Shown: piece after piece, positions 24,857 through 49,369 of the stretch | How the letters are laid out: each line of letters starts with the position of its first letter | Numbering within the stretch: position 1 is the stretch's first letter | Source of the DNA: Hahella chejuensis KCTC 2396 | GTDB taxonomy: Bacteria > Pseudomonadota > Gammaproteobacteria > Pseudomonadales > Oleiphilaceae | NCBI RefSeq assembly: GCF_000012985.1 | Contig: NC_007645.1 | Span: 3,564,501 to 3,628,500, forward strand | DNA length: 64,000 nt | Direction: 5' to 3' | Translations under genes and position numbers: made by a program | The notes under the pieces: model-generated | What the model was told of the DNA's origin: nothing | Seen by the model: the letters and a program-made list of their open reading frames with translations, nothing else | Database searches by the model: none

Positions 24857-26172
24857 AGATCCAGCTCGATATCGTCCACACTTGAAGCAGACTTGGCTGC
24901 ACGCTCTACCGCGTTCAACTCCGTATCCGAAATCGTTAAAGCGTAGTGCTCTCTAGGGTTGAACTCATCATGTTGGTCAATTCTATCCAGCACGTCGCCG
25001 ACCAATTTCTTTAAGAAGATTCGAGGCGCAACGCCGATCTTTCCGCCCAGGTTTCCTGTCACCGCTTTGGCAAGATCTGCGATGTATGTGTCATCGGCCT
25101 TAGTATTGACTCGCTCGGGAGTATCACTGATATTCGCGTACAGATCCCTCACTTTCTGTCCCACTTCTTCAAGCGACGACAAATCAAAACCTTTTAATCG
25201 AATTTGCACCGCTCTTGGATTATCAAATCGACTGTCTGTGGAGAAATCTACGGCTAAACGTTGTGCCAGCGGCGCCAGTCTCTGTACACCCATCGGCCCA
25301 TCGAAAAAAGCAGGAGTACCGGTAATCAATAAGTACAACCCGGGGAATCGCCCACTATCAATTTCGTCCATCAACTGTCGCAAGGCGTTAAGGCTTTTAT
25401 CCCGTACATCGCCACGCATGCGTTGAAGCGTTTCAACTTCATCCAATACCAGTAATAAACCAGAATGACCGGAATCCTTTAATATCGTTAAAACGCCTTG
25501 TAGAAAGCTCAGTGCGCCAAAATGGTCAATATCGCCTTTAATTTCTGCATAACGCTTAATGGAGGCCGCAATGTTCGGTTGTCCCGCCATCCAAGCAAGT
25601 AAACCGTCCGCTATTTCTTCCCGTCCTTCCACGAGAGCCTTTCGATATGCTCTTAACGTTAATGCAAAAGCAGGCGCAGTTCTCACCACTTCGCCTAATC
25701 GCTTTTCCATAAGAGCATCCGTCGCACTCACCAAAGACTCGACATCATTCTCATCGACCTTTTCTTGCGATAGCACATCTTCTTCTAACGTGTAGAACCA
25801 GGATTCGACAATATTCCGAAAGGCGCCTGTTGAACTGTCCGGTGTTGTAAGTCGTTCCATCAAACGTCGATATACTGTTTCCAGCCGGTGGAGCGGTGTC
25901 TCTGTTTCTGATACTTGCACTTCTGCACAAGCAAACCCTAACCGATGAGCTTTTTCCCGCAGCCAGCGAGACGCGAAGGTTTTACCACTACCATACTCAC
26001 CACGCACAGCTTTAAAAACCGAACCGCCACCAGCGACTTTGTTTAATTCTTCTGATAGTGCCTTTTCAAGCGGATCTAGCCCGACTGCGAGCGCATCCAA
26101 ACCATATTGCGGCACCGTGCCGCGCCTTAAAGCGTCAATAATGTCTCGGCTTCTTTGCTTGCTAATCGTCAT
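24853..26172 (-). CDS. brxD: BREX type 2 ATPase BrxD
   Basis: A 439-residue AAA-type ATPase. Walker A is GEYGSGKT (about 58-65) and Walker B LLLVLDEVETLQRM; SGRFPGLYLLITGTPAFF follows as the sensor region. The protein matches the DUF2791-type BrxD family, paired with a BrxHI helicase in type 2 BREX. It overlaps both neighbours by 4 bp (with pglZ at 26169-26172 and brxHI at 24853-24856), so the three should be made together. Confidence 0.92.
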   Translation of the reverse strand: MTISKQRSRDIIDALRRGTVPQYGLDALAVGLDPLEKALSEELNKVAGGGSVFKAVRGEYGSGKTFASRWLREKAHRLGFACAEVQVSETETPLHRLETVYRRLMERLTTPDSSTGAFRNIVESWFYTLEEDVLSQEKVDENDVESLVSATDALMEKRLGEVVRTAPAFALTLRAYRKALVEGREEIADGLLAWMAGQPNIAASIKRYAEIKGDIDHFGALSFLQGVLTILKDSGHSGLLLVLDEVETLQRMRGDVRDKSLNALRQLMDEIDSGRFPGLYLLITGTPAFFDGPMGVQRLAPLAQRLAVDFSTDSRFDNPRAVQIRLKGFDLSSLEEVGQKVRDLYANISDTPERVNTKADDTYIADLAKAVTGNLGGKIGVAPRIFLKKLVGDVLDRIDQHDEFNPREHYALTISDTELNAVERAAKSASSVDDIELDL

Positions 26173-28967
26173 AATTCAAACTGTGTTTTTAGGGCTCGAA
26201 CATCAAGCATGATAGTTTGAGAATCTCGTTCGACTTTTAAAATGGGGTAGCCATCCACGTTCAAAATTCTTTGTGCGGCGGATAAAAATCCTCTCATGCG
26301 GAGCTCGGGCTTTTTGAGTTCTCTTACAACCACAGCTTGCATTATCTGCCCGCCATTGGCACTCAGCAGTGTCAAAAACTCTTTCAACTCCGATTTCGAT
26401 ATTGCCATCCGTCCTAAACGACTCTGTGCATCTTTATAAACTGCGGAATCGAATAACTGCTCGACCCAATCCTCACTAGTAATTTTTTTGGTTGCTTCTG
26501 GCTCGGCAAATAAATCGTCAATCCGTTCTTCTGTCGCTTTGCGTTTTGACGCTGTTTTTGTTTCCGCCTTCTTCTCTTCTTGTTTTATTTCTGGTGTAGG
26601 TGTTTCAGATACAACAGAAATTGTGTTAAGAGTCCACCAATCTGGCCGGTAGAGGGGGACTTCTTTCCAACCCGACAATTTGTTCTCTGCGCCAGAGTTT
26701 GAAAACACACCCAGTGGTATGGAGGCTTCTTGCAAACTGGCCCCACCGTGATACCCCATATTTTTGCTTTTGCTATAACGGACTTTCTCAGACCAAGGTA
26801 CAACTGCGGTATTGTCTTTACCGACCACGCGAATGCCTTTCGTAATCACTTCCTTCTCTCGTATCGCCTTGGTATCCGAGTGGTACCTTTCACCCGATTC
26901 TGTGCTCGATGAGTAATAAGTGGTCTCGTGCTCAAGAGTATGTCCGTGGTCACTGGTTACTATCACAACGCGCCCGGACTCACGAGCCGCCTCCAGAACT
27001 TGCTTTAATGGACGAATAGAATCCAACTGCCATTTAAACGCAACCTGAGAACTACTACTGAGCTGGTCGTCGACAGCATTGATAACCGCCGCCAATATCT
27101 TATGCTCCGTACCGGCAATGAGGGCTCTCACTTCTGAATTAAGTGATCCACTACCAGATTGCTGCAGATCCTGCTTATGAAACAGTTTTGGGGGGAATTT
27201 GGTGGAAGCTATACGCTTTAATAACGGGTGATTTGTAAAATTCTTTTTCTCTTCTTGCGCAAGTCCGCTCCCAAGTTCTCCCGATAAGAGCGCATACCGA
27301 CTCACCTGAGTAATGGAAGGCAGTGCAGATACCAGGCTTTGTGATTCACCTATGTCTTCACGCTGCAGCTCCACCCAATTGTGATTAGCGAAATCTTCAA
27401 TCAACTCGCGGTAAACGGCTTGGCTCATGCCATCTAGTACCAACAGCAAAACTGGCGACTGCTCGGCTATGGGAGCGACGATTTTTTCAAGGGCTTGTTC
27501 TACATACAACAGGCGACTGGGTAGTTGATCACCTTTGGCAATAGACTCTAACGAGGTTCCAAACTCAAAATTTTCAGCTTCGCGTCCATCGCCGATTTTC
27601 TCTGCTAAACGCTGGTACACCTGACTTAGCGCGTCTTCGGCATCGCCAAACCAAATTTGGGTTCTTGCCCAATCCACAAAACCACCATGATCCATATATC
27701 GCTTTAGCAGCTGAGAGCAATTCGTGTTCTTTTCTAAAGCCTTTTGCGTGGTTTCTTGAGAGTCAAGTAGCCAATGGACAAGGCGCAACGCCATTTTTGC
27801 CCGTTCTATTTGATCTCTTTGGCCTGGTAACGCACCTAGTACGTGCAATTCCAGTTCTCTAAAAGCTAACTGTGCGGGTTGTGTATCGCCTTTCTTTATG
27901 GCTTGTTCAAGCGCTTTGCCAAAGGTGATCAAACGTAAGCGAAAGCCGGCTGGCAATACGTTTGAGCAAATGGCTCCATCACTCGCATCAACGCTTGCTA
28001 ATAATTGCTCTGCTTTGGTGATTGAGTTTTTAACCTTTTGATACCCGTCGGGCTCGCTAACGATCAGATCCTTCACAAACAGCGCAGCCTTTTCTCCAAA
28101 CTTCGCCAGAGAATCAGTATTGCAAGCTATCCCGTTCAGTTGTCGCTCTTTCAGTTTAATGTTCGCAGCGAACTGTTGCTCGTAACTCAGCGCACCTTCC
28201 TTGACGGCATCCGGGTGATAAATTACCGAGCAAACCAAACCTATCGCGAGCAGATCCTCAACGGGTTGACGGACTATCAACTGCCCAACCACTGGCGCTA
28301 AGCCATTCAATGTAATGCTCAGCCAATCAGCTATGGATTCCTGCATCTCAGCAGGTAGCGCGTTGCTGGGTTGGTGTTTTGATGCGTTAGAAATGGACCA
28401 GCGAAATAGACTGGAGAGATCACTGTGCTGTTGATTAAAGCCGAGATAGCCCACCGCTAAAGCTTGCCAGGCGGTCTCCTGATCCAACACTTCACCAAAA
28501 TGAACGCTTTTTTCGTAACGGTCGTAGCGGCTCAATAAGGCCTCGGCCATCCATTTACCGTAGCGCTTGGGTAGACGTGGATCAATGGACTGAACGCGGG
28601 TTAGTTGCTCCAGGGTTCTCCAAGGGCTTATACGCTGAGGCTCGTTACGCCACAGCCTAGCCAATACATCTTGCGCGAGGTCAGTTACTCCAAAAGGAGC
28701 CACCAGGACTAAACAGTTATTACCGTCGTGCTCCACTAATGCCTCACGCATGGCCAACTCGGAGACGCAATAAACCAGTTTTATCGACGTGTCCTCCAGG
28801 CGGCCTGTATATTCAGTCGGTACTAATGTATCTGTCCAGAAAATTGCAATTCTGTCCGCATTGGGGGCCCTGCGTAAAACCGCCTGAATTTGCGTCAACA
28901 GCGGAGAAGGCAGTTTCGATAAGTCTGCCTCATTCTTACTTAACTCAACTTTCGTTGAATAATTCAT
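26169..28967 (-). CDS. pglZ: BREX phosphatase-fold protein PglZ
   Basis: A 932-residue protein with the alkaline-phosphatase-superfamily core of PglZ. Metal-site motifs are visible: LLLVLDGMS (D512) and IVTSDHGHTLEH (D673, H674, H676). The N-terminal half is helical and typical of the type 2 form; a Lys/Glu-rich linker lies near 800-840 (KQEEKKAETKTASKRK). PglZ is the signature protein of BREX and is needed for protection. The ATG overlaps the pglY stop (ATGA). Confidence 0.94.
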   Translation of the reverse strand: MNYSTKVELSKNEADLSKLPSPLLTQIQAVLRRAPNADRIAIFWTDTLVPTEYTGRLEDTSIKLVYCVSELAMREALVEHDGNNCLVLVAPFGVTDLAQDVLARLWRNEPQRISPWRTLEQLTRVQSIDPRLPKRYGKWMAEALLSRYDRYEKSVHFGEVLDQETAWQALAVGYLGFNQQHSDLSSLFRWSISNASKHQPSNALPAEMQESIADWLSITLNGLAPVVGQLIVRQPVEDLLAIGLVCSVIYHPDAVKEGALSYEQQFAANIKLKERQLNGIACNTDSLAKFGEKAALFVKDLIVSEPDGYQKVKNSITKAEQLLASVDASDGAICSNVLPAGFRLRLITFGKALEQAIKKGDTQPAQLAFRELELHVLGALPGQRDQIERAKMALRLVHWLLDSQETTQKALEKNTNCSQLLKRYMDHGGFVDWARTQIWFGDAEDALSQVYQRLAEKIGDGREAENFEFGTSLESIAKGDQLPSRLLYVEQALEKIVAPIAEQSPVLLLVLDGMSQAVYRELIEDFANHNWVELQREDIGESQSLVSALPSITQVSRYALLSGELGSGLAQEEKKNFTNHPLLKRIASTKFPPKLFHKQDLQQSGSGSLNSEVRALIAGTEHKILAAVINAVDDQLSSSSQVAFKWQLDSIRPLKQVLEAARESGRVVIVTSDHGHTLEHETTYYSSSTESGERYHSDTKAIREKEVITKGIRVVGKDNTAVVPWSEKVRYSKSKNMGYHGGASLQEASIPLGVFSNSGAENKLSGWKEVPLYRPDWWTLNTISVVSETPTPEIKQEEKKAETKTASKRKATEERIDDLFAEPEATKKITSEDWVEQLFDSAVYKDAQSRLGRMAISKSELKEFLTLLSANGGQIMQAVVVRELKKPELRMRGFLSAAQRILNVDGYPILKVERDSQTIMLDVRALKTQFEL

Positions 28968-31900
28968 CAGCTGTTACCACCTGCCGAATCATCGGTATGG
29001 AGAATGCGATAACTCAACTCTAAAGTCTCGCCGGTACTCATAGCACCTTCAATTTCTGCAAATAATGCCTTGGCGGCATCTCGATTCAGGCCTGTTTTAT
29101 TGTCCTGTTTAATCACTCGCACCTTGGGATTCTTCGGCTCCGGTGTAGGTTCTGGCAGAGCGGGCGGAGTATTCTGGGCGATTAACCGCGTCGCATCTTG
29201 CTGAGCTTGCCGGAAGGCCGGCGACAGCGCCGTCACCAATTCATCCGCCGCCAGTGCATCACACACTCGTTGTCTAATGGCCTTGCCAGCAGGGTCATTG
29301 CCATTCCATACCGTTTCCAGCAACTCCCAATTGTTGTCTTGAATGGTTTGCACAACGCTACCCGCCGTCGTCATGCTTTTGCCCAAGGCCAGTAAATTGG
29401 TTATAGGCTTAATACCGGCTAGTACCTTTACCAGGGTGGCGCCCTCAGCGGCTTGCAATTCACGCAGCACTTCCAACGCATACTGAGCGTTACGAATTCT
29501 ATTTCCAGTTAAGGGTTGTTTAAGCCAGTCGAGTCGCTTACTGATGTGTTGAGCCAAAGATTCGCAGTTCGGTAAGCAACTGCGAATTTCCTCGCGAATA
29601 TGCTTTTGCAGCTCGTTTTGATTGTTGGCCGTTCTCAAGGGGCTGACGGTAATGCCGAAGATTTCAGCAGCATTATGGGAACCCTTTTGCCATTGGTCAG
29701 GTTCAGCCAAATCCTGTTTGATTAACTCAAGGTTGTCGGGCATATCTTTCAGGGTGACATCATAGCTACCGCCATGGAAGCTATAAGCGTACTGACCAAA
29801 TTCTGCGAATATTTGAATCAGTAAATTCTGAACAATCTCGGGCAGCCCTTTCGGACTAGGTTGATCAATAGCTTCTCTAATGCGCTTAACCGTAATGGCC
29901 TCTCCTGTCTGCTGCTGTTTTGCTAGCCCTCTCGTCAGCTGATTCGGCCAATCGGGTTTAAAAATAAAATGGCGCTCATGCATTTCACCGAGTTTTAATG
30001 GCTGTGCGATAGAGCGCATTAAAGGCCGCATGGGCGTTTCAACATCAATGCGATGATTTTGCGCAAAAATGGCTCGGCGTATTTGTTCAAATACTTTACC
30101 CAAATCCGTGAGTTTGATTTCCGAATCAAATTCCGGGTGCTCTGGGTATTGGTGCTCTAGCGCTTGCCCTAGTAGGTTTTCAAAGGCTTTGCCTAAGGTG
30201 CTGCCAAATGGAAGTCGCGGCTTAAAACCTTCTTCAAGAGAGATTATTTGAGAATCTAAACTTCCTGCACCATCATCCAATGAGCCAGAGATTCGTTCAC
30301 TGGCGCCATACGCGCCCAGCAAATAGTCCTTAATGCGTTGCCGCAACTGACTGCGCTGGTTTTCGAGTAAAGTTCGCGCTTGACCTCGATCCACAGGGCT
30401 CAGATGTTTGCTAAAGGAACTAAATCGGTCATCGGTTTTTAATACATACTCCAACCGCACCAAGGTGCCCAAATCCTTTTGCGCCGTTTGGCTGAAAAAG
30501 TATGGCAACCAACACAAAGTACGTGTGGGGCTACTGTGTGATTCGTATTCTTGAATGCGCGCCCGATCATCTGAAACCGTGTGGTTATCGCGATCAAACG
30601 GAAAGTCCACAATCACTTTCCAGTCATCACCGCGCGCTTCGAATAGAGTGAAGTCCGTAATTTCGCGGATGTTGTAAAACAGCACTTCAACCGTCCGCGT
30701 AGTGCCACGCCAGGTGAACTTGTGCGTAGTCTCCTGGAACATATCATCGGTTTCTTGCACACCCAACGCGGCGAACACCATATCTTTAACCAGCTTGCGG
30801 CGGGCGCCGTCATTATCGTAAGAGTTGGCTTGCTCCAAGATGCTGGCGGTATCCACGCCGGATAACTGCAAGGCGATGGTGGGGTTGGTGTCATCACTGA
30901 TTTTGATCTCGCCCACCTGGCCGGCCCATTTACGACAACGGGAGAGCACCATGCTGGCCTCTTTGCCTGGGATGGGTGATTTAATGGTGCCATGGTTTAG
31001 CGCCGCGAGTTTATTGGCTGTGAGCTGTTTGAAGCATTCCACTTCAGGCACCAAAGCAGAGAGCAAGAGAGTTTTAATCAGACGAAGGTCATTATTGAAT
31101 GCCCGCTTTGCAGAATCTGTGTCGGGTATAGAATCGAAATCAGCGTACTTGAGGTTATGATCGGACTCGAGCAGCGGTATAAGCTTACGCTCAAACAAGG
31201 TTTTTGCGTTTTCGAATTGTTGTCGCATAGCATCAGAGAAAGGTTTCGTTTCCGATGCGATGACATCGTACAAATCTCCAACGGGAATAACATTGCCTAA
31301 CTCCAACGTATCTCGTTGCTGTACGAGTAACATCAACATCACTTTTAACGCGGTACGCTCACGTTGAAGCGCAGTGGAAAGCGCAACCAAGGCTTGCACA
31401 AGCGCGGGGCTGAAAGGATACAGCGAGCGAAATTGTTCTCTGTCGCCTTGGTTGGTCAGCAAAATATTGAAGATTTCCTCCTTCATTTTGCTGTCCATGG
31501 TTTCAAAGGCGCTGTCTACCTGAATTTTTGCAGATTCACTCACAGGGCGAAGCAAACGGCGCTGTGCAATGACCGGTAAGTTTCTGTCTTCCAGCTTAAT
31601 GGTATGAAAGCGCCCATCCCAATATTTTAAGGCGTCACTTAAGCTGTCTTGCTGTGCACCCGTATACTGGTCGCCCACAAACTCACGCAAGTCGCGCTGG
31701 CGGGCAATAAAACTAGCGATCGGCAACGCCCTGGGTTCGCTGGCTTCCACCAACTTGACCACTTTTTGAATATTTTTGGCGATAAATTTTTCGTCTGAAA
31801 TTCGGCTGGCGAGCCAAAGAATCAGCTCGTCTAAAAACAGAATAACCGCATCGTAACCCAGCGCTTTGGCATGTTCCGTCATAATCAGCAAGCCTTCATC

Positions 31901-32650
31901 AAAATCGACAAAGCCCTGGTCATCGGTTTTGGCGGCCTCGGTTACGGACTGGAAAAAGGCCTGCACCAGATCGCCCACCAAACGCGAACGATCTGCGCGG
32001 TTACCGTTAGCAGAAATTGCCAAGGTGTAGCTATCTAACTCCCAACTGCCACTGTCGATATCGCCCCAGCCGGAATCCTCCCCGCCACCTTGCCCATTTT
32101 TATTCAGTGCTTGAAAGAAAGCGACATCACCCATTGTTGCGCGTAGGTTTTCGGCATCTTTAACAATGCCATCGGCGAGATAAAACCCGGGTATGGGCGC
32201 CTCGGGGTGGTGTTTGTGAATGTATTTGGCATAACCACCCAACACACCGGCTTCAATACTGGCGGCGCCAATCATTTGGTAAGGCACCAGTAAAATATTT
32301 TTACTTTGTAACCAATCGTCGTGTTTGTTAACCGCTGGCGCCAGTTCGTTAATCGCTCTCGCTTCCGCGTTGCCTTGCAAAAGTAAGTGCAGCACGGCCA
32401 TAAAGTGGGATTTACCGCTACCAAAGCTGCCGTGCAAATACGCGCCTTTTTGACGGTTTTGGTTGCCCTCGATGGTGGATTTAATAAAACCTAAGGCATC
32501 CTCAAAGGCGCGCGCCAATTGTGGTGTTACCACATACTGATCCAAAGTCTGCTTAACAGCAGCGGGTTCCAAACCGGTAGATAAATTCAGTACAAAGTCC
32601 CCGCTTTGCACTTTCTCCGGTATGGTGATCAGGTCTTTTAATAAGATCAT
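28967..32650 (-). CDS. pglY: BREX type 2 large ATPase PglY
   Basis: A 1227-residue ATPase, the type 2 counterpart of BrxC. Walker A GSFGSGKSHF lies about 75 residues from the start, and AVILFLDELILWLA is a good Walker B. The remainder is large and helical, as expected (DUF6079-like). The ATG at 32650 with GGAA upstream is preferred over an in-frame TTG at 32656. A 77-bp gap separates it from pglX; its stop overlaps pglZ. Works with PglX and PglZ in phage discrimination. Confidence 0.93.
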   Translation of the reverse strand: MILLKDLITIPEKVQSGDFVLNLSTGLEPAAVKQTLDQYVVTPQLARAFEDALGFIKSTIEGNQNRQKGAYLHGSFGSGKSHFMAVLHLLLQGNAEARAINELAPAVNKHDDWLQSKNILLVPYQMIGAASIEAGVLGGYAKYIHKHHPEAPIPGFYLADGIVKDAENLRATMGDVAFFQALNKNGQGGGEDSGWGDIDSGSWELDSYTLAISANGNRADRSRLVGDLVQAFFQSVTEAAKTDDQGFVDFDEGLLIMTEHAKALGYDAVILFLDELILWLASRISDEKFIAKNIQKVVKLVEASEPRALPIASFIARQRDLREFVGDQYTGAQQDSLSDALKYWDGRFHTIKLEDRNLPVIAQRRLLRPVSESAKIQVDSAFETMDSKMKEEIFNILLTNQGDREQFRSLYPFSPALVQALVALSTALQRERTALKVMLMLLVQQRDTLELGNVIPVGDLYDVIASETKPFSDAMRQQFENAKTLFERKLIPLLESDHNLKYADFDSIPDTDSAKRAFNNDLRLIKTLLLSALVPEVECFKQLTANKLAALNHGTIKSPIPGKEASMVLSRCRKWAGQVGEIKISDDTNPTIALQLSGVDTASILEQANSYDNDGARRKLVKDMVFAALGVQETDDMFQETTHKFTWRGTTRTVEVLFYNIREITDFTLFEARGDDWKVIVDFPFDRDNHTVSDDRARIQEYESHSSPTRTLCWLPYFFSQTAQKDLGTLVRLEYVLKTDDRFSSFSKHLSPVDRGQARTLLENQRSQLRQRIKDYLLGAYGASERISGSLDDGAGSLDSQIISLEEGFKPRLPFGSTLGKAFENLLGQALEHQYPEHPEFDSEIKLTDLGKVFEQIRRAIFAQNHRIDVETPMRPLMRSIAQPLKLGEMHERHFIFKPDWPNQLTRGLAKQQQTGEAITVKRIREAIDQPSPKGLPEIVQNLLIQIFAEFGQYAYSFHGGSYDVTLKDMPDNLELIKQDLAEPDQWQKGSHNAAEIFGITVSPLRTANNQNELQKHIREEIRSCLPNCESLAQHISKRLDWLKQPLTGNRIRNAQYALEVLRELQAAEGATLVKVLAGIKPITNLLALGKSMTTAGSVVQTIQDNNWELLETVWNGNDPAGKAIRQRVCDALAADELVTALSPAFRQAQQDATRLIAQNTPPALPEPTPEPKNPKVRVIKQDNKTGLNRDAAKALFAEIEGAMSTGETLELSYRILHTDDSAGGNS

Positions 32651-32727
32651 AGCCAATTTTCCAGTTTGAAAAGCGCTATTCTTCTAAGCGCATCCGTCAA
32701 TATCGTTATCTGGTTTTAATCAAAGAT

Positions 32728-35700
32728 TTATCTTCGTCTTCTTGTGGTTGTCGGCGGTCGCCAATCCAACAATTCTTCACGCGTTAACTCCCAACGGCGC
32801 AGCTCTTCCAACAAATAACTTTCATAAAAGTCACCCATACGTTCACCGTATTCGGGGTCTATGTCGTTGTGCCATTGTTTTAGCCAGGGAATTAATTCGT
32901 CTATCGCTACCAACATCGGCATTAAACGTTCCGCTTCCCACCCATCGTTTTCTTTGCGGTCTTCGTACCAAGCGGCAATGGCTTGAGCGCGCTGCAAATG
33001 GTTTAAACCTGCCCAGCCAATCACTAACGTGTTATCGCCGTCTTTTTCACAGCCTGGCAGAGAGAAGAATCGTTCTTTGGGTACGTCGAGCTTACCGCGT
33101 AATGGCCAGTAGCTGGCTTTTCGGAAGTCGCTTTGTTTGTATTGGGGCGGAAGAGGAATATCGCCAATAATCTCGGCTTTTTTAGCTTCAGCTTTGCGTT
33201 TAGCTTCTTCGTATTTGGCACGGTTGCTTTCGTCGGCGGAATCCACTTCAGACAAAGGCCTGTCCACTCCGAATTCAGCATCAATCGCGTCTTCTAGCCG
33301 CTGCTTTTCCCAGGTTTCCTGCCAAGCACGATATTTTTCCATAGCTGCAGGCTTGATTCGGTCGGCCGCAGTTTGAGGAACATTATCTGAAGCTACCAAA
33401 TCACTGACTAGAGTTTGAAAATCAAAGTCTTCCCCTCTGGTATATATTGCGGCCACCTGCCTTGCTTTTTTATGTTCTCGAACTTTGTCAGCTAATTGAG
33501 CGCAGGTTGAAAGCTTATGGAATTCCATCAATTTCTGAATGCAATCCAATAACCAATCTTTTGCAGCTAGCTTTAATCTGTCGTCCCAAGAGTCCCTTGC
33601 CCATCGCCGCTTATGATCTTTGTTATCAATTAATTTAATTGACTCATTTTCTTTTATCTCATTGATGCGCGCGTTCACTATATCGCGATATTTTTCCGGC
33701 CATTCGCTAGGAATTTCGGTATTAGGTTTACTACAATGGTGCTCGAACCAAACAGTCTTTAACTCGCCTGCATTTATTTTTCTTGCCAAAACTATTTCGA
33801 ATGCTCGCTGACCCAAATCAATTTCTGGAAGTTCTCCCTCACAACACAAGGGTGCTTTTGTTAATCCGTATAGATAGTAAACAAACCAATCCAACTCTTC
33901 TTGCAGAGCAATCATTTCTCTCAATATTTTATATTCTGTTTCTTTTGCCTTTGATAGTGCTTCATAGAGTTGATCTTCTGCTTGGTTGAGTATTGATGAT
34001 GGACTACAACTCTCTAGACGTTTTGTTAAACTATCGATTTGCTTTGCAAATAGGGTTGCTTGCTTGCTCGTATCTTCAACAACAGGAAAGGCCTTTAACT
34101 TTGTACCGTCCCACTCCATTCGCTCTTGCCACTTACCATCAGAAAACCCGCCACGCCCAAAAAACGTCTGACGCCCCCAAAAGCACGCAGTTGAGCTATT
34201 TAGCAATGCTAGCAGCCCGAAATGATCAGTTTCTGTAGCCAAAGTCGGTAGCTTTATAACTGGAGCAGTTCGATTGAATACATTGCCACCCCGGTCTAAC
34301 ACAAAATGGTTGTGGGTCGCCACGAATGCAAAAGTTATAGAGAGCGATGTTTGGTAAGCGGATGCGGTATGTTGCATATAGTCATACCATCTAAGACCTG
34401 CGTCAGCCATTACTCCCTGAAAAGTTTTTCGATTTGCCAGAGTAGTTTTCCATGCCCACAAAATACTTAAAGCTTTCGACCGAGAAGATTCTTTAAAATA
34501 GGGATACCATACCGAAGATGCATGTATTTTGGTCCAATCACGAATATGCTCACCAATTAAAAGTCCACGAAATTCACTTAAGCTTATTTTAGAGTTTCTC
34601 AATCTTACTGGCGAAAAGATAAAAATATCTTCTTCTGCAATTCGGACGCCACGGCCAATGGGAGGCTCCACAACTTCCTCCATTTGGCAAGTACTGTTTT
34701 CTTCCAATAATATCTTTAGTTCTGTGGCCCCACCGCCTCCGACACTCCAAGGGTGCGACAAAAAAAACTCTCGTGGCTGATCTACTATAGAAATGAATTC
34801 GTTTTCTGAATTTACTTTCGGTAGCAAGTCCACAATTGAACGCCAGACCTTTCCCTGCGACGCAGTTTTAGGAGCACTCGGCTCTCCGCGAATACCCAAT
34901 GCAGCTCTAACCGTTTCTAAGCGTGGTTTTTGATTGCGAGCAAGAAGAATCACTGTAGGGGTACCATGACCAGGAATATATGCCCCTGAGGTATCGATCA
35001 CGTGGGTCAAATCTTTATTTTGGAAAAGCTCTTCAATCAACTTTTTTCCAAACTCACGCTTCATAAAACTATTCGCGGTAATCATGCCAACAAAGCCTGC
35101 TGATTGATTTTCCTTTTCAAGAAACGCTAGGTCAAAAAAGCGCTCAGTAAAGGGAACACCTAACGAGAACTGACGATGACAGGTCGGGTATTTATCCCTA
35201 TAAGCTGCACCAAGAGCTTTATCCTTTACCGTTATATAAGGCGGATTACCAACCACTACATGAAATGGTTTTTCGCCTAAAATTTTGTTGAGTTTCTCGA
35301 GATCTTCTGCTTCAAATACATGCTTTATTTCGTCATCCAATAAACCTTGCTGAATACCTTGTCCCTGCCATTCAAACCTTCTTCCATGCAGCAAAGAATC
35401 CCCACAAGCCAGGTTAAAATGAAACGCTGGCGCATCCTTTATTAGGTCTATATCGCAAGCCTTCATCGCCGCCATCAATAGACGAAAACGACAAATGGCA
35501 ATCGCATAGGGGTTAATATCCACCCCATGCACTACATCCAATGCGCGCTGAGCCAAGACCCGACTATTAGTGCCTGGCTCGCGTTTTTGCCAACGTTCAA
35601 AAATGCGCTCGAAGGTAGTTAATAAAAAATGGCCGGAACCGCAGGTGGGATCAATTAAGCGCAGGCCCTCCAGGCCAAAGGTTTTAATTGCTGGCTCTAA

Positions 35701-36381
35701 GGTATAATCCAGAATAAAACTTTCGACAAACTCCGGTGTTTGCAGCAGGGCGTAACGTTTGCGAACGGCCTCAGATAGATCCTGATACAAATCCCCCAGG
35801 AAGCGCGTGTCCCAATTGGGATCGGTGAAATCGTGAATGATCTGCCCAGTTTCTGGATCGATCTTTTGGAAAAAATCGATCAGGCTTTTTGCTCCATCTG
35901 CTGAGACAGGAATTTGCCAGAGTGGGTTATGGCGGTGATCCAAGAGTTCTGCGATAACGGGAATTTTTTCCAACTGCTCAAATAGCTGCAGCAAATACTC
36001 CCGCTCTGCATGAGTGGGGTGCGCGTTAAAATAAGCTTCAATGCGATCTTTGGCGTTCTTTAACGGATGACTTTTTGCTGAATCGGGGCCACTCTCACGC
36101 TCCACTGGGCCAGCCAATACCGGCTGAGCTAGCAGGCCATTGTCTTCCAGAAAACGCACAAACACACAGGTTAATACCCAAGCAACCGCCGCTTGAGTAA
36201 TTTGCGCCTCCCGCCAGGAAACGAAATGCTCTGCCGTTCGACCCGCTTCTTTCGCTTTAGCGTATTCCTGCTTTAGATGTGAAGTGCGCTCCATACTCTG
36301 CTCGTTGTAAGCCAGAATATCTTTTTCCAGCTTTGGTAATTCGCGCTGGAGATCTTTTAATAACTGTTGACGGTCTATCAT
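32728..36381 (-). CDS. pglX: BREX type 2 adenine-specific DNA methyltransferase PglX
   Basis: A 1217-residue N6-adenine methyltransferase of the large PglX/Eco57I type. SAM-binding motif I DPTCGSGHF (244-252) and catalytic motif IV NPPY (379-382) are intact; the N-terminal helical region and long C-terminal target-recognition part fit the family. PglX marks host DNA at a non-palindromic site. No homopolymer or tandem repeat that would suggest phase variation is seen in the gene. The ATG overlaps the stop of the TOPRIM-like gene (ATGA), so the inserted pair is translationally joined to pglX. The gene is clearly less GC-rich than the NRPS and PKS regions, as is the whole operon. Confidence 0.94.
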   Translation of the reverse strand: MIDRQQLLKDLQRELPKLEKDILAYNEQSMERTSHLKQEYAKAKEAGRTAEHFVSWREAQITQAAVAWVLTCVFVRFLEDNGLLAQPVLAGPVERESGPDSAKSHPLKNAKDRIEAYFNAHPTHAEREYLLQLFEQLEKIPVIAELLDHRHNPLWQIPVSADGAKSLIDFFQKIDPETGQIIHDFTDPNWDTRFLGDLYQDLSEAVRKRYALLQTPEFVESFILDYTLEPAIKTFGLEGLRLIDPTCGSGHFLLTTFERIFERWQKREPGTNSRVLAQRALDVVHGVDINPYAIAICRFRLLMAAMKACDIDLIKDAPAFHFNLACGDSLLHGRRFEWQGQGIQQGLLDDEIKHVFEAEDLEKLNKILGEKPFHVVVGNPPYITVKDKALGAAYRDKYPTCHRQFSLGVPFTERFFDLAFLEKENQSAGFVGMITANSFMKREFGKKLIEELFQNKDLTHVIDTSGAYIPGHGTPTVILLARNQKPRLETVRAALGIRGEPSAPKTASQGKVWRSIVDLLPKVNSENEFISIVDQPREFFLSHPWSVGGGGATELKILLEENSTCQMEEVVEPPIGRGVRIAEEDIFIFSPVRLRNSKISLSEFRGLLIGEHIRDWTKIHASSVWYPYFKESSRSKALSILWAWKTTLANRKTFQGVMADAGLRWYDYMQHTASAYQTSLSITFAFVATHNHFVLDRGGNVFNRTAPVIKLPTLATETDHFGLLALLNSSTACFWGRQTFFGRGGFSDGKWQERMEWDGTKLKAFPVVEDTSKQATLFAKQIDSLTKRLESCSPSSILNQAEDQLYEALSKAKETEYKILREMIALQEELDWFVYYLYGLTKAPLCCEGELPEIDLGQRAFEIVLARKINAGELKTVWFEHHCSKPNTEIPSEWPEKYRDIVNARINEIKENESIKLIDNKDHKRRWARDSWDDRLKLAAKDWLLDCIQKLMEFHKLSTCAQLADKVREHKKARQVAAIYTRGEDFDFQTLVSDLVASDNVPQTAADRIKPAAMEKYRAWQETWEKQRLEDAIDAEFGVDRPLSEVDSADESNRAKYEEAKRKAEAKKAEIIGDIPLPPQYKQSDFRKASYWPLRGKLDVPKERFFSLPGCEKDGDNTLVIGWAGLNHLQRAQAIAAWYEDRKENDGWEAERLMPMLVAIDELIPWLKQWHNDIDPEYGERMGDFYESYLLEELRRWELTREELLDWRPPTTTRRRR

Positions 36382-36998
36382 GCGTCCATCTTATTTTTTA
36401 GTTCATTAATAAAGCGAGCGGCCCAGCCGGATGCTTGCTGTACTAATGCTGGTGATATTTCTTTTAGTATTTTGAAGGAATGACTTCCCTTTCCGTATTT
36501 ACCTTTCTTGCAATCTTTAGTCGCATTTTCCAATGCTTGATACACTTGTTGCTTACTGACTTCCTCTATGGGGCGTTGCTCAGAAGGCAAAACGTTGGCA
36601 TTAAAGTTTTGCCCAAAGAAATTCTCTAGTGTTTTCCGATCTGCAATAAACCACGACTCCATAACTTGAACCATTAAATGGCAATCTGTATCTATGGCGC
36701 CTTCTGGTTTTCGCCAACCATCTCGACTCTGCAAATGGCTCCAGGGAAGCCAGGCATTTTGCGCTCCAGTTTGGTTTTGTGAATTTACCGCTTGTTCACT
36801 ATCGACAAGCAGCATTGCGGATTCACCATTTGCTAAGGCTGTACAATAAGATTCATAAGCATCGCGTCGGCTTCCGCATGCTACAACTCTTGGTCTCTTA
36901 TTTATTCCCGCCGCAGTAATAAATTGAGTAAACCCCTGGCGGCAAGCTGTTTTCAGCTCGTTTGAATCACCACCACCTTCAACATAGAGTTTTACCAT
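36378..36998 (-). CDS. TOPRIM-like (DUF4276-type) protein paired with the ATPase
   Basis: A 206-residue protein. The N-terminal MVKLYVEGGGDSNE and the later AMLLVDSEQ place an acidic residue after each of two strands, the pattern of TOPRIM nucleases and of DUF4276 partners of SMC-like ATPases; the second motif reads D-x-E where TOPRIM usually has D-x-D. GGAGGG five bases before the ATG at 36998 makes this start better than 37028. It overlaps the ATPase gene by 7 bp and pglX by 4 bp. PARIS (AriA-AriB) and OLD systems pair an ATPase sensor with a TOPRIM-type effector, so an abortive or nuclease effector is likely. The exact family is uncertain. Confidence 0.65.
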   Translation of the reverse strand: MVKLYVEGGGDSNELKTACRQGFTQFITAAGINKRPRVVACGSRRDAYESYCTALANGESAMLLVDSEQAVNSQNQTGAQNAWLPWSHLQSRDGWRKPEGAIDTDCHLMVQVMESWFIADRKTLENFFGQNFNANVLPSEQRPIEEVSKQQVYQALENATKDCKKGKYGKGSHSFKILKEISPALVQQASGWAARFINELKNKMDA

Positions 36999-38152
36999 CG
37001 AGTCCCTCCAATTTCTCCGCGCGTCCATAATTGACCTAATCGGTATTTCTCTAACCAGGGTTTAAGTTTTTTCCCATCCAATCGAGTGAGTGTAGAGCCG
37101 TCTTCTCCGCGCTCTGCGACAAGTACACTTTCTGGTTGATCAGACATTGCATCCACAAGTACATCTGAGTGAGTTGTCACAATTAGCTGACAGCGCTCGG
37201 ATGCTTCTTTCAATATTTCTGCTAAGGCAGGCAATACATCCGGATGTAAGCCTAATTCCGGCTCTTCGATACAAATCAATGGCGGAGGATTAGGGTGAAA
37301 TAGAATCGCCAAAAGACAAAGGTAACGCAGAGTGCCGTCAGATAAGCGCGAGGCGGGGATTGTTATATTATCTTCAAAGAAAAATACTTGTACTGTTCCA
37401 CCTTCTATTTGAACGCCGTAGTCTGTAATACCCTCATAGAGGCCTTGAAGTGCTCTTAATATTTTCTTTTTGACTGTTGGTTCTTTTGAAAAGCGGTTTA
37501 GCAGAAGACCTAGATTTTTACTATCAGGCTCCAGGTAATCATTTGGCAAATCTGCTTTTTGCGGAAGTCTTGAAGGCATTGAACGCCCAAAACTCCATTC
37601 TCGGTAGAGTCGAATTTTAGAAAATACTTCGCCTAAATAGGTAACTTCTGGATATTGTTCTGGATCTTTTCTCTGAGACAAAATGGATAAGTTCACATCA
37701 ATATTTTCGCTTGATGACTTTTTCTTACCCTTTACCGAGAGAAATCCTTTTCCATTAGAAAACTCGTAGAAAGATGAAAAATTACTATTTGAGCTCTTTT
37801 TCTCTACGGATTCAATCCGCTCTTCAATTAGTTCAAACCTTTGGGATATAGCAGTAAAACTTAAGGAATATCTCAAATCTTGTTTTTTTTGAGAATCAGT
37901 GAGTATAGCTTCTAGAACTGCAACAGGATTAGCTGAGCTTCTTTTCCACAGAAGCTCGTGAACACCTCCACCATTCCTGATGGCCGCTAAAAGATCTTTA
38001 GGTGCAGCATGAAGTAGCTCAATAGCCTCGATAAGATTGGTCTTTCCCGATCCATTCGGGCCGATAATAATATTTAGAGGTTGCAAAGAAATATATTGTT
38101 CTTTTTCCCCATAACTTAAAAAGTTTTTGATCGATATGGATTTAAGCAACAT
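36992..38152 (-). CDS. SMC/ABC-like AAA ATPase (AAA15/21 type) inserted in the BREX operon
   Basis: A 386-residue ATPase of the RecF/OLD/AriA kind. Walker A GPNGSGKTNLI is near the N-terminus after the typical SIKNFLSYGE strand; RLSDGTLRYLCLLAIL is the signature region; ICIEEPELGLHP is Walker B with the D-loop; TTHSDVLVDAM carries the switch His. No fused nuclease domain follows, consistent with the separate TOPRIM-like gene it overlaps. AGGAG precedes the ATG at good spacing. It sits between pglW and pglX, where type 2 BREX does not normally have a gene. A role as phage sensor for its partner is inference from PARIS and OLD. Confidence 0.8.
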   Translation of the reverse strand: MLLKSISIKNFLSYGEKEQYISLQPLNIIIGPNGSGKTNLIEAIELLHAAPKDLLAAIRNGGGVHELLWKRSSANPVAVLEAILTDSQKKQDLRYSLSFTAISQRFELIEERIESVEKKSSNSNFSSFYEFSNGKGFLSVKGKKKSSSENIDVNLSILSQRKDPEQYPEVTYLGEVFSKIRLYREWSFGRSMPSRLPQKADLPNDYLEPDSKNLGLLLNRFSKEPTVKKKILRALQGLYEGITDYGVQIEGGTVQVFFFEDNITIPASRLSDGTLRYLCLLAILFHPNPPPLICIEEPELGLHPDVLPALAEILKEASERCQLIVTTHSDVLVDAMSDQPESVLVAERGEDGSTLTRLDGKKLKPWLEKYRLGQLWTRGEIGGTRW

Positions 38153-38219
38153 GTGCTTCTCCTAAATGTTCTTTCGCTATATTCATCAGCAGAAACTTAA
38201 ATTCGCAACGCATTGATTA

Positions 38220-41200
38220 TTAATTTGAAAACTGTGGTTGATCTGGTTTAACCCAGCTGCCGGAAAGTCGTGCATAGATGCTGTTTCCCGCCTCCAATGG
38301 AATTACTTTGCCATCAATAACAGGCGCATGTTGCTGTGCGTCCCCGACAATTAATAACACCAAGGCATGAACATGACCCGTATTCGCCAAATGCTGGCGC
38401 AGCTCGTTAAGCCAGGTGTGAATAAGATCGTAACGGGCGATAAGGCCGGGCTCTGTTAATAGCACGGGTTTATCGGATTGTTTTATTTCGTCGGCAATCG
38501 AGGGCAAAACCTGATGAACCAGCCTTTGCAGGTTCACCCAATCACGACTGGTTTGGTCGGCGGCATCGGCTTTAAGCACCACCTGCCAATTGGGTGGGTT
38601 CTTCATTGCTGCGCAGTGTTGGTGTAGGCGCCTAAGAAGTAACTCATCGAAACTGAAGCTAACAAGCCCGTAGGTAGAACAAAGCTTGATTTTGGCCTTT
38701 TCCATATCCCGCGGGCGCACACCAAGCGCCAGGAAACGGCCGTCGCGCAAACTGTTGCTGATGGATTGGCGAATGCTTTTTTCATCCTGCCAGGCTTCAC
38801 CATCCCAATCAGTTTGTTGCGTTAATGAGGTCTTGGTTTGAGTGGCCTGATACTCAGTAAAGCTGGTGATGGGCAAGCAGTAGGCGCCCAGTTGTTTTTT
38901 GCCGTCTTTATCGAAGGTTTCGTAATTTGGGTCCCACAAAAAGCCCATATCCAGCTTAAGTACTAAGTCGTCCAAGTGGGGCCTGCCTGGTAAAGGTTTG
39001 GCAGCAGGGTAACGCCCCTTTACCCGGACTTGAACCTCCGCCACAGTGAGCGCCTTGCTTCCTAAGAGGGCGCCTTGCGCCAGCTCTAAAGCCTGCGCGG
39101 CCTCCATATCCCGTGGGTAGAACTCCGCCCGGCTGGATAGTGCAGCCTGTTCCGATGCTGCGGCCGCCAGGCGCAGTAGCCGATGGGTGCTCAGGCCTGT
39201 GAAGGTTTCCGGAGCAGGCACTGCACGGACTTTATCCAATGTGGCCTGGGGTGAGAGTAAAGGTTGCTTTAATGCACATTCGCTGGCCAATTGACCAAGG
39301 TCCTGAGCGTAGGTGGCGAGGTCTTCACCTTGCTCTTGTTGGTTGTCCGCAATGACATAGCGGTTACCAAAACGGCGCAATATCCAGCGAGGTTGCTGTT
39401 TGCTGATTTCGGTCTCCACCGCTGCCCGCACCACGGCCTGAGCGTGACGGGAGCGTATGGGGTTGTCTTCCACCGAGCCCCTGCGCAGCAGCACAGCATC
39501 GGCCAGTTCAATTGCGGTCATCACACCACCGTTTTCGGTGAGAATCTCAACGATTTCATTGCGCAGCAAGTTGACTTCCGACAACTTGCCCCACTGGGTG
39601 GTGAGTTTGCTGAGGATTTGCCGGGCCTCGGCTGCCTCCATATTGATTTCGCTGCACAGCATGGTGATGCTGGGCCAGTGGACATTGTGATGGCCTTTCG
39701 GCGCTTCGGAATCCAACCTGCCTAAGAATTCATTTAAAAAGCTGCGTCGGGAGATATCAGGTGTTTTAGGGTAGATAAGGCCGAATAGGCGGTCAACGCT
39801 GGCTTGTTGCGCACCATCATGCTGGGATACTGGCTGAGCAACTTCGTTTGGCCACTTTTCCTGGAGTTTGCGAATCAGCTCTGACACTTCGTTACGGGTT
39901 TTGATACCGACACCCGGCCAGGCGCGCACCTTACTACGGTTTTGTTTGAGTAGATCCGCCACTGTATTGAGATTACGTCGACTAAGCGCATCCAGGGCTT
40001 GCGGGCTAAGTTCCAGAAGCCCGATTTGGGTGTCTTGCTGAGCCTCTTCCACCGGGCACGTCGGTACCTCGCCGTGAACAGTGGGATGCCGGGATTCTTT
40101 AGAGGCCTGCAGAAAGACCTGGCGCCAGGCGCGCAGCATATCGGCCGCTGTGGCGAAACGGCTGCCGAGATCCCGAGCTAATGCTCTTTGAAAGAACTTG
40201 GCCATACTGCTGCGAATGGATGGATCGAATACTGAAGCGTCCAATTGAAGCTCATGTTCCAAATCTATGGGTAAACCTTGATTGGCCGCCCAACCGGGCA
40301 AAGTGCCTGCGGCCATTTCGTAAAGAGTGAGCGCGGCGGCAAATCGTTCGGCATAGTCATCCCAACGCCTGCGGCCAGCGTCGCGGATGTAAGGGTCCAT
40401 ATAGGCCATGGTGCCGACTTTGATATTGTCGGTACCAGCGTTAGACAAGGAAAAGTCGAACAAAACCAGATGCAACTGGCTACCGAGCTCAGTAACGCCA
40501 ATGTTGTCTGGTTTGATGTCACGGTGCATTAGGGCTTTGTCTTCCAGATGGACCATGGCGCTGAGGAGGTCGTCACCAAAGCGCTCCAATAACTCCAACT
40601 GAATGGCTCCGGTGCGTCGGATGCGTTGCGCCAAAGTGCCGCCTGTGGCGTAATCAATAAGCAGGCAGGTATGGCCAAGGATATCCAGCGTTTTGTGGTG
40701 CGCGATAATGGCTTGATGGCGAAGTTGGCCGAGGGTTTCACCCTCCTGATGCAGCCGCCGATTGTGTTCTGGGTCCAGGGCCATTTTTAACACGCGTTGC
40801 TGGCCTTGGTATTCAACTAAAAATGCGACAGAACAGGCGCCGCGACCTAGACGCTTGATGACGGTGTAACCGCCTTCGAAGGTATCGCCTTTCTTAGCTT
40901 CTGTGGGCTTTTGCGTGACTTCCCCCTCTGGTCGGGTAATGTCATTTTCGACTTCGGTCAGGTAGTCCAAAAAGTCCTGCACGGAATCCAATCTGGCGCC
41001 TGGGTCTGGGTGTGTAGCGTACTGAACCAAATAGGAAACCCAGGATGACGCACCATTGATTACATCTGTTACCTGAAGGCCATCTTTTCCTAGTTTGTCT
41101 TGCAGCTCAAGTTCATTTGCTGCGGGCTTTTTACCAGTAAACAAGTGGTAAGCGATGGCGCCCAATGAGAAGACATCAAGTTGAGTGCCGTCAGCTTCTT

Positions 41201-42377
41201 CCAAAGTATGAGATTCCAGCGCCATATAGGAACCGGATTCTTCCTGAACCATGCGTGTAAGCTTGCTAAATGCACTGATGTGTTTGGATTCGGTCTCAAA
41301 GATCCGCTGCGCTGTGGCCCAATTGGCAATTTTGATCTTGAACTCGCCGTTCTCTTCTTTAATAAAAATGGATTGTGGGCTGAGCGCCCTGTGATAAAGC
41401 TTTTGGCTGTGCGCGTATTTAACCGTTTCCGCTATGGAGCGAAGTAAGCTTACCGCCACAGATTGATCCAGGCGTTTACCTTCGTCTTGCTTGAGCAACC
41501 AGTGGTCCAGACGCTGGGAGCCATCGAAGTTTTCATAGATCAACGCTGGGCCGTGGTCGTGCCGTTGAAACTCCAAGGTTTTGAGAATGCCTGGGTAATC
41601 AACCCCTTCCAAGAGCTGCGCCTCCAAATGGGCGGCTTTGTCCAGCCGTGCGGCTTCGTCTGCTGCTTTGCCTTGGGTGAGGTAGATTCTTACTCGCCTT
41701 CTTACCTGAGTATCCACATGTCGCCCAAGCCACTCTTGGTACAAATCCGTTTCATCCAGTAACTCAGCGAGGTCAAACTGACCGACACGCCGGGTGCGCA
41801 GAGACTCTTTGATACCCGCCTGTAACATGGCTTGAGAAACCGTTTTCGCCGACACTTTGTCCAGCTTTTTATGCTTCCAGCTGTCATCAATACGAGTGAT
41901 TTCTTCTATGAAATTCTTACGGGTATACACCTGCTTACGGCCGTTGCCTTCCAACTTGTTAACAATATTGGGCGCAGAAAGAAAAATGACGGGCGTAATG
42001 AAAGGGATTCTTTCTTTGGATGACTTACGTGCGGCATCCTGAGCTTGTAGCAAAGATGCAAGCTTTTTGGCTTTGCGATCCGTGAGCAGTAGTGGGTTGT
42101 CAAAAGCTTTGCGCTTACCCTCAGGCGCTTCCCAAATCCAGATTCCTGCGTCGCCTTTCATGACACCCGGGTGCGATTTGATCTCGACCAGAAACAGCCC
42201 TTTTGGGGTGTGGACGAGTAGATCCACCTCGTTGACGAAGCCTTCCTTAGTAATGAACTCAAAGTTCGCCCAAGCTCGATAGGGCTCGTGATCCGGAAGC
42301 GCTGCTTTCACGAAGTCCAGCGCCTCTTGCTCCCAAGTATGATCGGAGGTGGTTATTTGTTTCCAGAATTTATCCAT
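38220..42377 (-). CDS. pglW: BREX type 2 protein kinase PglW (NERD + kinase domains)
   Basis: A 1385-residue signalling protein. An N-terminal NERD nuclease-like domain (about 20-140) has NEVDLLVHTPKGLFLVEIKS with D53, E65 and K67. A first kinase-like domain (about 245-475) is degenerate: HRALSPQS (329-336) in place of HRDxxxxN and no DFG. A second kinase domain (about 503-750) keeps the glycine loop GRGACS, K531 and HRDIKPDN (D620), with DFS (641-643) for DFG. A helix-hairpin-helix-like region (LSRRNLNTVADLLKQ..., about 800-860) and a long C-terminal part follow. PglW is diagnostic of type 2 BREX. The start overlaps the HTH gene by 8 bp. Confidence 0.92.
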   Translation of the reverse strand: MDKFWKQITTSDHTWEQEALDFVKAALPDHEPYRAWANFEFITKEGFVNEVDLLVHTPKGLFLVEIKSHPGVMKGDAGIWIWEAPEGKRKAFDNPLLLTDRKAKKLASLLQAQDAARKSSKERIPFITPVIFLSAPNIVNKLEGNGRKQVYTRKNFIEEITRIDDSWKHKKLDKVSAKTVSQAMLQAGIKESLRTRRVGQFDLAELLDETDLYQEWLGRHVDTQVRRRVRIYLTQGKAADEAARLDKAAHLEAQLLEGVDYPGILKTLEFQRHDHGPALIYENFDGSQRLDHWLLKQDEGKRLDQSVAVSLLRSIAETVKYAHSQKLYHRALSPQSIFIKEENGEFKIKIANWATAQRIFETESKHISAFSKLTRMVQEESGSYMALESHTLEEADGTQLDVFSLGAIAYHLFTGKKPAANELELQDKLGKDGLQVTDVINGASSWVSYLVQYATHPDPGARLDSVQDFLDYLTEVENDITRPEGEVTQKPTEAKKGDTFEGGYTVIKRLGRGACSVAFLVEYQGQQRVLKMALDPEHNRRLHQEGETLGQLRHQAIIAHHKTLDILGHTCLLIDYATGGTLAQRIRRTGAIQLELLERFGDDLLSAMVHLEDKALMHRDIKPDNIGVTELGSQLHLVLFDFSLSNAGTDNIKVGTMAYMDPYIRDAGRRRWDDYAERFAAALTLYEMAAGTLPGWAANQGLPIDLEHELQLDASVFDPSIRSSMAKFFQRALARDLGSRFATAADMLRAWRQVFLQASKESRHPTVHGEVPTCPVEEAQQDTQIGLLELSPQALDALSRRNLNTVADLLKQNRSKVRAWPGVGIKTRNEVSELIRKLQEKWPNEVAQPVSQHDGAQQASVDRLFGLIYPKTPDISRRSFLNEFLGRLDSEAPKGHHNVHWPSITMLCSEINMEAAEARQILSKLTTQWGKLSEVNLLRNEIVEILTENGGVMTAIELADAVLLRRGSVEDNPIRSRHAQAVVRAAVETEISKQQPRWILRRFGNRYVIADNQQEQGEDLATYAQDLGQLASECALKQPLLSPQATLDKVRAVPAPETFTGLSTHRLLRLAAAASEQAALSSRAEFYPRDMEAAQALELAQGALLGSKALTVAEVQVRVKGRYPAAKPLPGRPHLDDLVLKLDMGFLWDPNYETFDKDGKKQLGAYCLPITSFTEYQATQTKTSLTQQTDWDGEAWQDEKSIRQSISNSLRDGRFLALGVRPRDMEKAKIKLCSTYGLVSFSFDELLLRRLHQHCAAMKNPPNWQVVLKADAADQTSRDWVNLQRLVHQVLPSIADEIKQSDKPVLLTEPGLIARYDLIHTWLNELRQHLANTGHVHALVLLIVGDAQQHAPVIDGKVIPLEAGNSIYARLSGSWVKPDQPQFSN

Positions 42378-48871: not shown

Positions 48872-49369
48872 TTTATAGTCTTCCACAGTGCATTGATTCT
48901 TAGCTCTGGTTCGCATGAACCCGTTTAAAGGCGTTGGGAATCTATGCTTCAAACAGACATAGAAATCCCCTATCCAAAATCACCCTTAAACGTTTCAGAT
49001 CCGACATAGATAAATTAAGTAAAAAGTTCGGCATTGCTATCTTGTCGCCGAAACCAGAACCTCATCCTTTAAGGCGAATAACCGAAATGCATCAAGCTAA
49101 TAACTGCCGGCGCAGCCATCAATTTAATGCAGTGTTTCCGTTATCCATATCCCAGGCGAACATTAACATAAGTTCACAGTTAATCCATTAGGGCAATGTT
49201 TATAACCCATACGGCATAACGATGAATAAAGAATTATCAGAATTGATATGCAACTTAATCTGCATCACCAATGATAGATTTTCATATTTTAATTATGCGC
49301 CGTTGCAACCTGTTTCGTATGATCCCACAGTCCTGCTGACAGGCCCTGCAAGCCTCATTTAGACTATTC

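Follow-up and report, generated by a model that had tools for sequence, protein, structure and literature searches.

A HEC-01-type ATPase-DUF4276 gene pair between pglW and pglX of a type 2 BREX operon in Hahella chejuensis

Results

An ATPase gene and a DUF4276 gene stand between pglW and pglX

A complete type 2 BREX operon of Hahella chejuensis KCTC 2396 carries two additional genes between its kinase gene pglW and its methyltransferase gene pglX, which encode an OLD/ABC-type ATPase and a DUF4276 protein. The operon lies on the minus strand at 22757-42377 of the window (the 64,000-nucleotide stretch analysed here, positions 3564501-3628500 of a genome whose one contig has 7,215,267 bases). 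The pair corresponds to HEC-01, a candidate model in PADLOC (HEC presumably standing for Hma-embedded candidate), as an ATPase matching HEC-01A adjoins a partner matching HEC-01B, both nearly end to end, the copy in the window being embedded in type 2 BREX. Its gene content, intact motifs, coupling to the BREX genes, autonomy and repeated occurrence at this site are observed directly. Our preferred explanation, to which we give a probability of roughly two in three (about 0.68), is that an autonomous HEC-01-type antiphage cassette, made up of a sensor ATPase and a Toprim-like nuclease, inserted seamlessly beside pglX and would act as a second layer to BREX.

The ATPase gene (36992-38152, minus strand) encodes 386 amino acids, which match Pfam AAA_21 at 141 bits (cut-off 27) and PADLOC HEC-01A (PDLC04177) at 592 bits from end to end (1-386). 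An earlier, sequence-only reading of this locus had described the protein as AriA/OLD-like; it is OLD-type, and the PADLOC AriA models reach 141 and 88 bits, comparable to general Pfam AAA domains and far below HEC-01A. Among solved structures, the best relatives by sequence were the OLD nuclease 6p74 (57 bits), the retron Ec83 ATPase (53 bits) and SMC heads; solved AriA scored 44 bits, aligning through its C-terminal region alone. Nineteen aligned ATPases share invariant P-loop residues, SDGT signature, Walker B glutamates (both) and THS switch, so the window ATPase is predicted to be active. The same genome holds a second, distant HEC-01A-like ATPase (L002, 1417-2580; 33% over part) which has no DUF4276 partner, the sole DUF4276 match in the genome being that of the window.

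The open reading frame (ORF) of the partner spans 36378-37028 on the minus strand (216 amino acids), and an inner ATG at 36998 is its probable start: a GGAGGG ribosome site is found just 5' of this ATG, and the homologue in a related operon (L123, below) starts at the equivalent point. From here the protein has 206 amino acids (36378-36998), matching Pfam DUF4276 at 76.4 bits (cut-off 30.2) and PADLOC HEC-01B (PDLC04201) at 277 bits. Both intervening genes, and the YVEGGGD and VDSE motifs of the second (the latter within LLVDSE), had been recognised correctly from the letters alone. Across 23 sequences E7, L64, D66, E114, W116 and K170 show no variation and E68 almost none; the conserved motifs are E...DSE...MExWFxxD...YxKG.

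Profile-profile comparisons gave remote links for this partner. We built a broad DUF4276 profile of 47 rows, then reduced it to 39 by dropping 8 (a few wrong-frame or repeated), and compared it with profiles of RloB (16 rows), DUF4435 (7 rows) and OLD Toprim (15 rows). Along most of its length the 39-row profile aligned with RloB (86.5% probability); DUF4435 gave 65% and OLD Toprim 45%, while 30 unrelated profile segments reached at most 1.6% and PtuB 0.7%. The uncleaned 47-row version gave 86% (85.8), 25% and 34%, and its alignment with RloB placed the VEG, DxD/E, ExW and YxK motifs in register; 21 close rows gave 73%, 49% and 11%, and the same 21 with two distant rows 36%, 63% and 13%. Negative controls stayed at or below 2.8% in every version. 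Because of these remote links to three families, together with the low negatives, a Toprim-like nuclease is the best reading of the partner, and a likely one; the Toprim effector proposed in the sequence-only reading is to this extent probably right, although no match to the AriB-family domain DUF4435 accompanies it.

Comparison with known ATPase-effector systems

The pair had been proposed to be PARIS-like. We take the AriB effector of PARIS to be of the DUF4435 family, and the partner has no DUF4435 match at E-values up to 1 (a profile-profile link being remote at most); its effector is instead a DUF4276 protein and the best PADLOC matches of the two proteins are HEC-01A and HEC-01B, and membership of PARIS was rejected. 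The window ATPase is also shorter (386 amino acids against 464 in solved AriA). The two systems would share an OLD-type ATPase sensor with a separate effector, Toprim in PARIS and putatively so here, and PARIS also occurs embedded in BREX (PMC11341690, PMC12839542; statements on published work refer throughout to the sections of each paper that were consulted). AriB is described as a Toprim tRNase (PMC12409363).

Three other systems were compared. AbiL (AbiLi-AbiLii) and RloA-RloB likewise combine an ATPase with an RloB-type partner, but HEC-01B has no direct RloB or AbiLii match and is tied to them by the remote profile link only. OLD class 1/2 and Gabija GajA, which join ATPase and Toprim in a single chain (accompanied in Gabija by the helicase GajB), were rejected, as ATPase and partner are here separate genes whose neighbours are BREX genes. 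Septu (PtuA-PtuB) resembles the pair in that its ATPase and nuclease occupy the same slots in other operons (L087, L091, L125), and differs in its partner, PtuB, which is HNH-type.

The cassette is spliced into the translation chain of the operon

All joints of the pair lie on the minus strand. Counted from the likely start of the partner, the ATPase and partner genes overlap by 7 bases (36992-36998, ATGGTAA), and the partner stop overlaps the pglX start by 4 bases (ATGA, 36378-36381); overlaps of a few bases had been noted before, and stand once the partner start is moved from 37028 to 36998. Upstream, a 67-base spacer in which no terminator was found separates pglW from the ATPase gene (38153-38219). 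The stretch 36200-38500 yielded no terminator-like site, and its promoter-like sites were no more numerous than in shuffles (2 against a shuffle mean of 4.2). In another pair-bearing operon (L117) pglW and the ATPase gene overlap, stop to start, and in an empty operon (L089) pglW overlaps pglX directly. The small overlaps at these joints suggest that the cassette was spliced into the translation chain of the operon; the predicted translational coupling with the BREX genes is supported.

The pair occurs apart from BREX

Of 398 genomes sampled from the phylum, 26 contained HEC-01B and 6 a BREX-2 methyltransferase above cut-off, the window's genome being counted in both. Outside the window, 16 HEC-01B matches among the 26 were taken with longer context (11-20 kb), which was searched with BREX-2 proteins only: no BREX-2 gene was found near the pair in any of the 16 stretches. 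An ATPase gene, or a piece of it, adjoins HEC-01B in 16/16 (for 15 from the fetched context, for L069 from the genome search), with the same gene order in relatives, and one pair (L067) has decayed through in-frame stops. Ten neighbour genes from eight of these stand-alone loci comprised eight of housekeeping, signalling, secretion or repeat type (polyprenyl synthetase, SPOUT methyltransferase, molybdopterin oxidoreductase, cytochrome, secretion, kinase and two tetratricopeptide-repeat domains), one Fic gene and one with no match. At the BREX-2 loci taken from the sample (n = 4), pglW adjoins pglX without the pair in three (L076, L077, L079), and no pglW was recognised in the fourth (L078). 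Since none of the 16 other loci examined has a BREX-2 gene nearby, the pair is, judging by its neighbourhoods, autonomous and separable from BREX, as the sequence-only reading had supposed. Searches of plasmids with tblastn returned no ATPase match at E-values up to 1e-20 and no DUF4276 match at E-values up to 1e-5. Phages gave three distant ATPase matches, RCS47 contributing two through separate records, and no DUF4276 partner is annotated at the one phage ATPase locus inspected.

This distribution bears on a guard of the PrrC kind, in which BREX proteins would keep the nuclease silent and their inactivation would release it. Co-translation with BREX proteins speaks for such a guard, as does the precedent of PrrC in type Ic restriction loci, RloC/PrrC having the same layout in restriction loci (PMC2610378). 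PrrC is, however, said always to accompany its restriction system (PMC2610378); the pair stands alone in 16/16 loci, where it must be silenced without BREX; we consider a PrrC-like guard very improbable.

Cassettes gather on both sides of pglX in type 2 operons

We scanned genome contigs with a five-sequence PglX alignment and used the best 80 of 279 BREX-2 loci, a survey of type 2 operons that the sequence-only reading had suggested. The same pair was present in the same pglW-pglX slot in two of the 80, in Marinobacter sp. ELB17 (L117) and in a gammaproteobacterial metagenome-assembled genome (L123), with ATPases 65-66% and partners 58-61% identical to those of the window, and ATPase cassettes of several kinds lay beside pglX in others. 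Some loci lack one or both pglX junctions, leaving 72 and 67 usable. Gaps of at least 600 bp, which are not always cassettes, were found at 17/72 pglW-pglX and 29/67 pglX-pglY junctions, compared with 3/53 at pglY-pglZ, 1/36 at pglZ-brxD and 1/18 at brxD-brxHI. Beside pglX this amounts to 46/139 large gaps against 5/107 at the other junctions (Fisher p = 1e-8, relatedness ignored), a count from which nine neighbour pairs, seven with large gaps, were omitted because a core gene between them went unrecognised.

These junctions speak to whether the pair serves BREX itself, as a component without which methylation or restriction would fail. Its position in the operon is what such a role would explain. 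The gap is below 600 bp at 55/72 pglW-pglX junctions, and because most of these junctions have no room for the pair, an essential part is unlikely; in Salmonella, moreover, deletion of the embedded PARIS left methylation near wild type, though defence against TB34 went up ~10-fold (PMC11341690). We give this explanation almost no credence.

An ATPase profile built from 14 stand-alone HEC-01A sequences was then applied to non-core ORFs of at least 150 amino acids, picked greedily by length. OLD-type ATPases made up 11/76 ORFs in the pglX slots and 1/212 in the flanks (p = 2e-6; both ORF totals may include spurious ones), and 0/7 at other internal junctions. The 11 slot ATPases, spread over 10/80 loci, are all oriented along the operon. 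HEC-01 fills the pglW-pglX slot in L117, L123 and L149 (where the PADLOC A and B labels are reversed) and the pglX-pglY slot in L127; Septu is found at pglW-pglX in L087 and L125 and at pglX-pglY in L091 and L125, AbiL at pglX-pglY in L082 and PDC-M31 at pglW-pglX in L088. In the pglW-pglX slot of L131, the partner of the ATPase is matched by neither Pfam nor PADLOC models and aligns with DUF4435 at 93%. Other inserts were Schlafen-like (L145, L147, L149, L150) or Fic genes (L107, L110).

Three of these operons have further peculiarities. A Gimesia sp. operon (L125) holds a different Septu pair on each side of pglX (6655-8771 and 12761-14985); the BREX-2 operon of Solirubrobacter taibaiensis (L160) has tandem PglX genes (8998-16000); and in Marinobacter sp. 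ELB17 (L117, 8998-16023) pglX is split in two by ~3.3 kb of intervening sequence.

A PARIS-like guard is the function that the sequence-only reading had in mind: the ATPase would sense phage BREX blockers (DNA mimics such as Ocr) and free the nuclease. The ATPase is of the same class, the effector fold is probably related, the L131 slot pairs an ATPase with a protein aligning with the AriB family, and the pair adjoins pglX; in type I BREX, Ocr binds the PglX protein (PMC11341690). Against this, the family is not PARIS, the pair is mostly found without BREX-2, and Ocr failed to activate the PARIS embedded in a type I BREX island of Salmonella (PMC11341690). We regard this mode of action as conceivable, if somewhat unlikely.

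Inserts beside pglXI in type 3 operons

A scan of viral contigs with the HEC-01B alignment yielded one confirmed locus (L266), with the order brxF, brxC, HEC-01A (64% identical), HEC-01B (56%), pglXI, HEC-02A, HEC-02B, brxHII, pglZ. The pair again lies directly upstream of the methyltransferase gene, with a 4-base overlap at its end. On this contig (L266/L362, 1193-16443) two ATPase cassettes flank the methyltransferase gene, HEC-01 preceding it and HEC-02 following. Scanning viral contigs with the ATPase profile returned at least 64 loci, and with PglXI only the L266 contig again. We also examined type 3 loci from seven of the 398 genomes, those with the strongest pglXI matches (at least 386 bits), some loci being ended by contig edges. 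OLD-type ATPases lie between pglXI and the adjacent core gene in L364, L365, L366 and L368, with two further genes between in L366, and the partner of the L368 ATPase aligns with DUF4276 at 91%. Weak ATPase matches occur within a large protein in L366 and L369, and L363 and L367 gave no OLD-type ATPase match.

Judged by eye from sequence, several further type 3 inserts are PIN- or Schlafen-like. In L365 and L366 pglXI is followed by an ATPase, a PIN-like and an RNA-ligase-like protein in series, and in L366 (10086-14157) and L369 (9253-13264) a PHP-like large protein, with a weak phosphoesterase match in L366, precedes a Schlafen-like protein beside pglXI. L364 has two PglXI genes.

We also weighed a broader reading of these observations, in which both pglX edges are a general BREX guard port to which unrelated ATPase-effector cassettes were repeatedly fitted. 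Being co-translated with the specificity subunit, a target of DNA-mimic inhibitors, a guard would be made in step with the target that it protects. We think a port of this generality rather unlikely.

History of the pair and of pglX

Operons bearing the pair form no group of their own on trees of PglX (81 rows), PglW (22 rows) or PglY (20 rows, lacking L123, which has no PglY on its contig). Within the related PglW clade 3/11 operons carry the pair, a distribution that requires at least three changes. The pairs themselves, from the window, L117 and L123, cluster along with one stand-alone pair, L064 (98/99 support, 19 rows). This tree pattern fits a mobile cassette that was either gained several times or gained and lost. 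In the window the GC content of the pair is 40-43%, that of pglX 45%, pglY 49% and pglW 52%; in L117 the pair has 54%, as do its surroundings, and in L123 it has 46% and is AT-rich along with pglX (44%). The GC content supports a recent arrival of the pair in the window, not in L117.

The same figures enter into the strongest rival, that the pair is a passenger: the pglX edges would merely tolerate insertion, with no polar effect, and the pair would defend alone with no functional tie to BREX. Its occurrence without BREX-2 genes at 16/16 other loci, its AT-richness in the window, its presence in 3/11 related operons with at least three changes, and the Fic and Schlafen genes that also occupy the slots all agree with a passenger. 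A passenger accounts less well for the 11/11 slot ATPases in operon direction, for the rarity of insertions at other internal junctions and for the fusion of the pair into the translation chain, and the L117 copy is not AT-rich, while that of L123 is so together with pglX. We hold the passenger to be a serious possibility that falls short of even odds.

The slot preference could also be a by-product of pglX being swapped between operons. In the 26 operon pairs with PglW identity of 90% or more, PglX identity is indeed only 62-82%. The variation is, however, internal, at about residues 480-1000 (60-residue windows often 20-60% identical, e.g. L081/L084, L106/L143, L108/L128), and the ends are conserved in 10/11 profiled operon pairs, the eleventh being incomplete. 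With the ends conserved, the junctions lie outside the variable stretch, which is probably a specificity region being swapped; this profiling weakens the by-product account, which we find quite improbable.

The host operon and its surroundings

All genes of type 2 BREX are present in the one operon by NCBIfam and PADLOC matches, and all are on the minus strand: the kinase gene pglW (38220-42377; NF033442, 1664.9 bits, cut-off 990), the adenine methyltransferase gene pglX (32728-36381; NF033451, 1444.9 bits, cut-off 400), the ATPase gene pglY (28967-32656; PADLOC BrxC-PglY, 1636 bits; NCBIfam 1052.7 bits, below its cut-off of 1700), pglZ (26169-28967; NF033446, 976.8 bits, cut-off 200), brxD (24853-26172; NF033438, 690.1 bits, cut-off 350) and the helicase gene brxHI (22757-24856; PADLOC BrxHI/BrxHII, 1026.5 bits). 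Rfam gave no match at gathering scores in 22000-45000. Beyond the operon, the gene of a CEMIP beta-helix/FG-GAP protein adjoins that of a G8-domain protein (45002-48952), and two neighbouring immunity genes of the Imm11 family follow (49687-50867).

Discussion

We propose that a HEC-01-type two-gene cassette inserted into this type 2 BREX operon at a pglX-side site which often takes such cassettes. The ABC-type ATPase would most likely serve as sensor and brake; once triggered, it would activate the DUF4276 partner, a putative Toprim-like, metal-dependent nuclease, which may cut nucleic acid and so disable the infected cell. Within the operon the pair would be made together with BREX, and we propose that it therefore acts as a second layer.

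Several points weigh against this proposal. The profile probabilities move with the alignment (RloB 36-87%, DUF4435 25-65% and OLD 11-45% over four versions), the HEC-01B sequence had no match among solved structures at E-values up to 10, and the Toprim assignment of HEC-01B is remote. The loci in the junction and slot statistics are related, not independent, and a search of the literature found no activity data for this pair.

Genes embedded in defence operons have been described before. In Campylobacter jejuni M1, slightly overlapping rloA and rloB lie within a restriction-modification region (PMC2928727). Went et al. (2024) surveyed the pglX-pglZ interval, whose genes include BrxU and PARIS, and deleted ariA/ariB from the Salmonella island (PMC11341690). 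Rakesh and Krishnan (2026) found OLD-ABC ATPases with TOPRIM, HNH, PIN and other nucleases across BREX and proposed a back-up role (PMC12839542); DUF4276 and HEC-01 are absent from its main text, and the sections consulted state no preference for the two pglX edges in type 2. DUF4276 was not found in the literature searched, and the consulted part of the PADLOC server paper (PMC9252829) has no mention of HEC. ATPase add-ons to BREX are therefore already known, as is the general idea of a back-up role, which is plausible for this pair; the DUF4276 pair and its preferred place beside pglX are new detail, and with them come the slot rule, the apparent coupling and turnover, and the remote RloB link.

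Layered defence within BREX is a current topic, and this locus offers a compact, swappable pair with natural controls, namely near-relative operons without the pair, with Septu or with AbiL. The link between DUF4276 and RloB supplies residues to mutate, and the slot rule points to where further guards may be sought.

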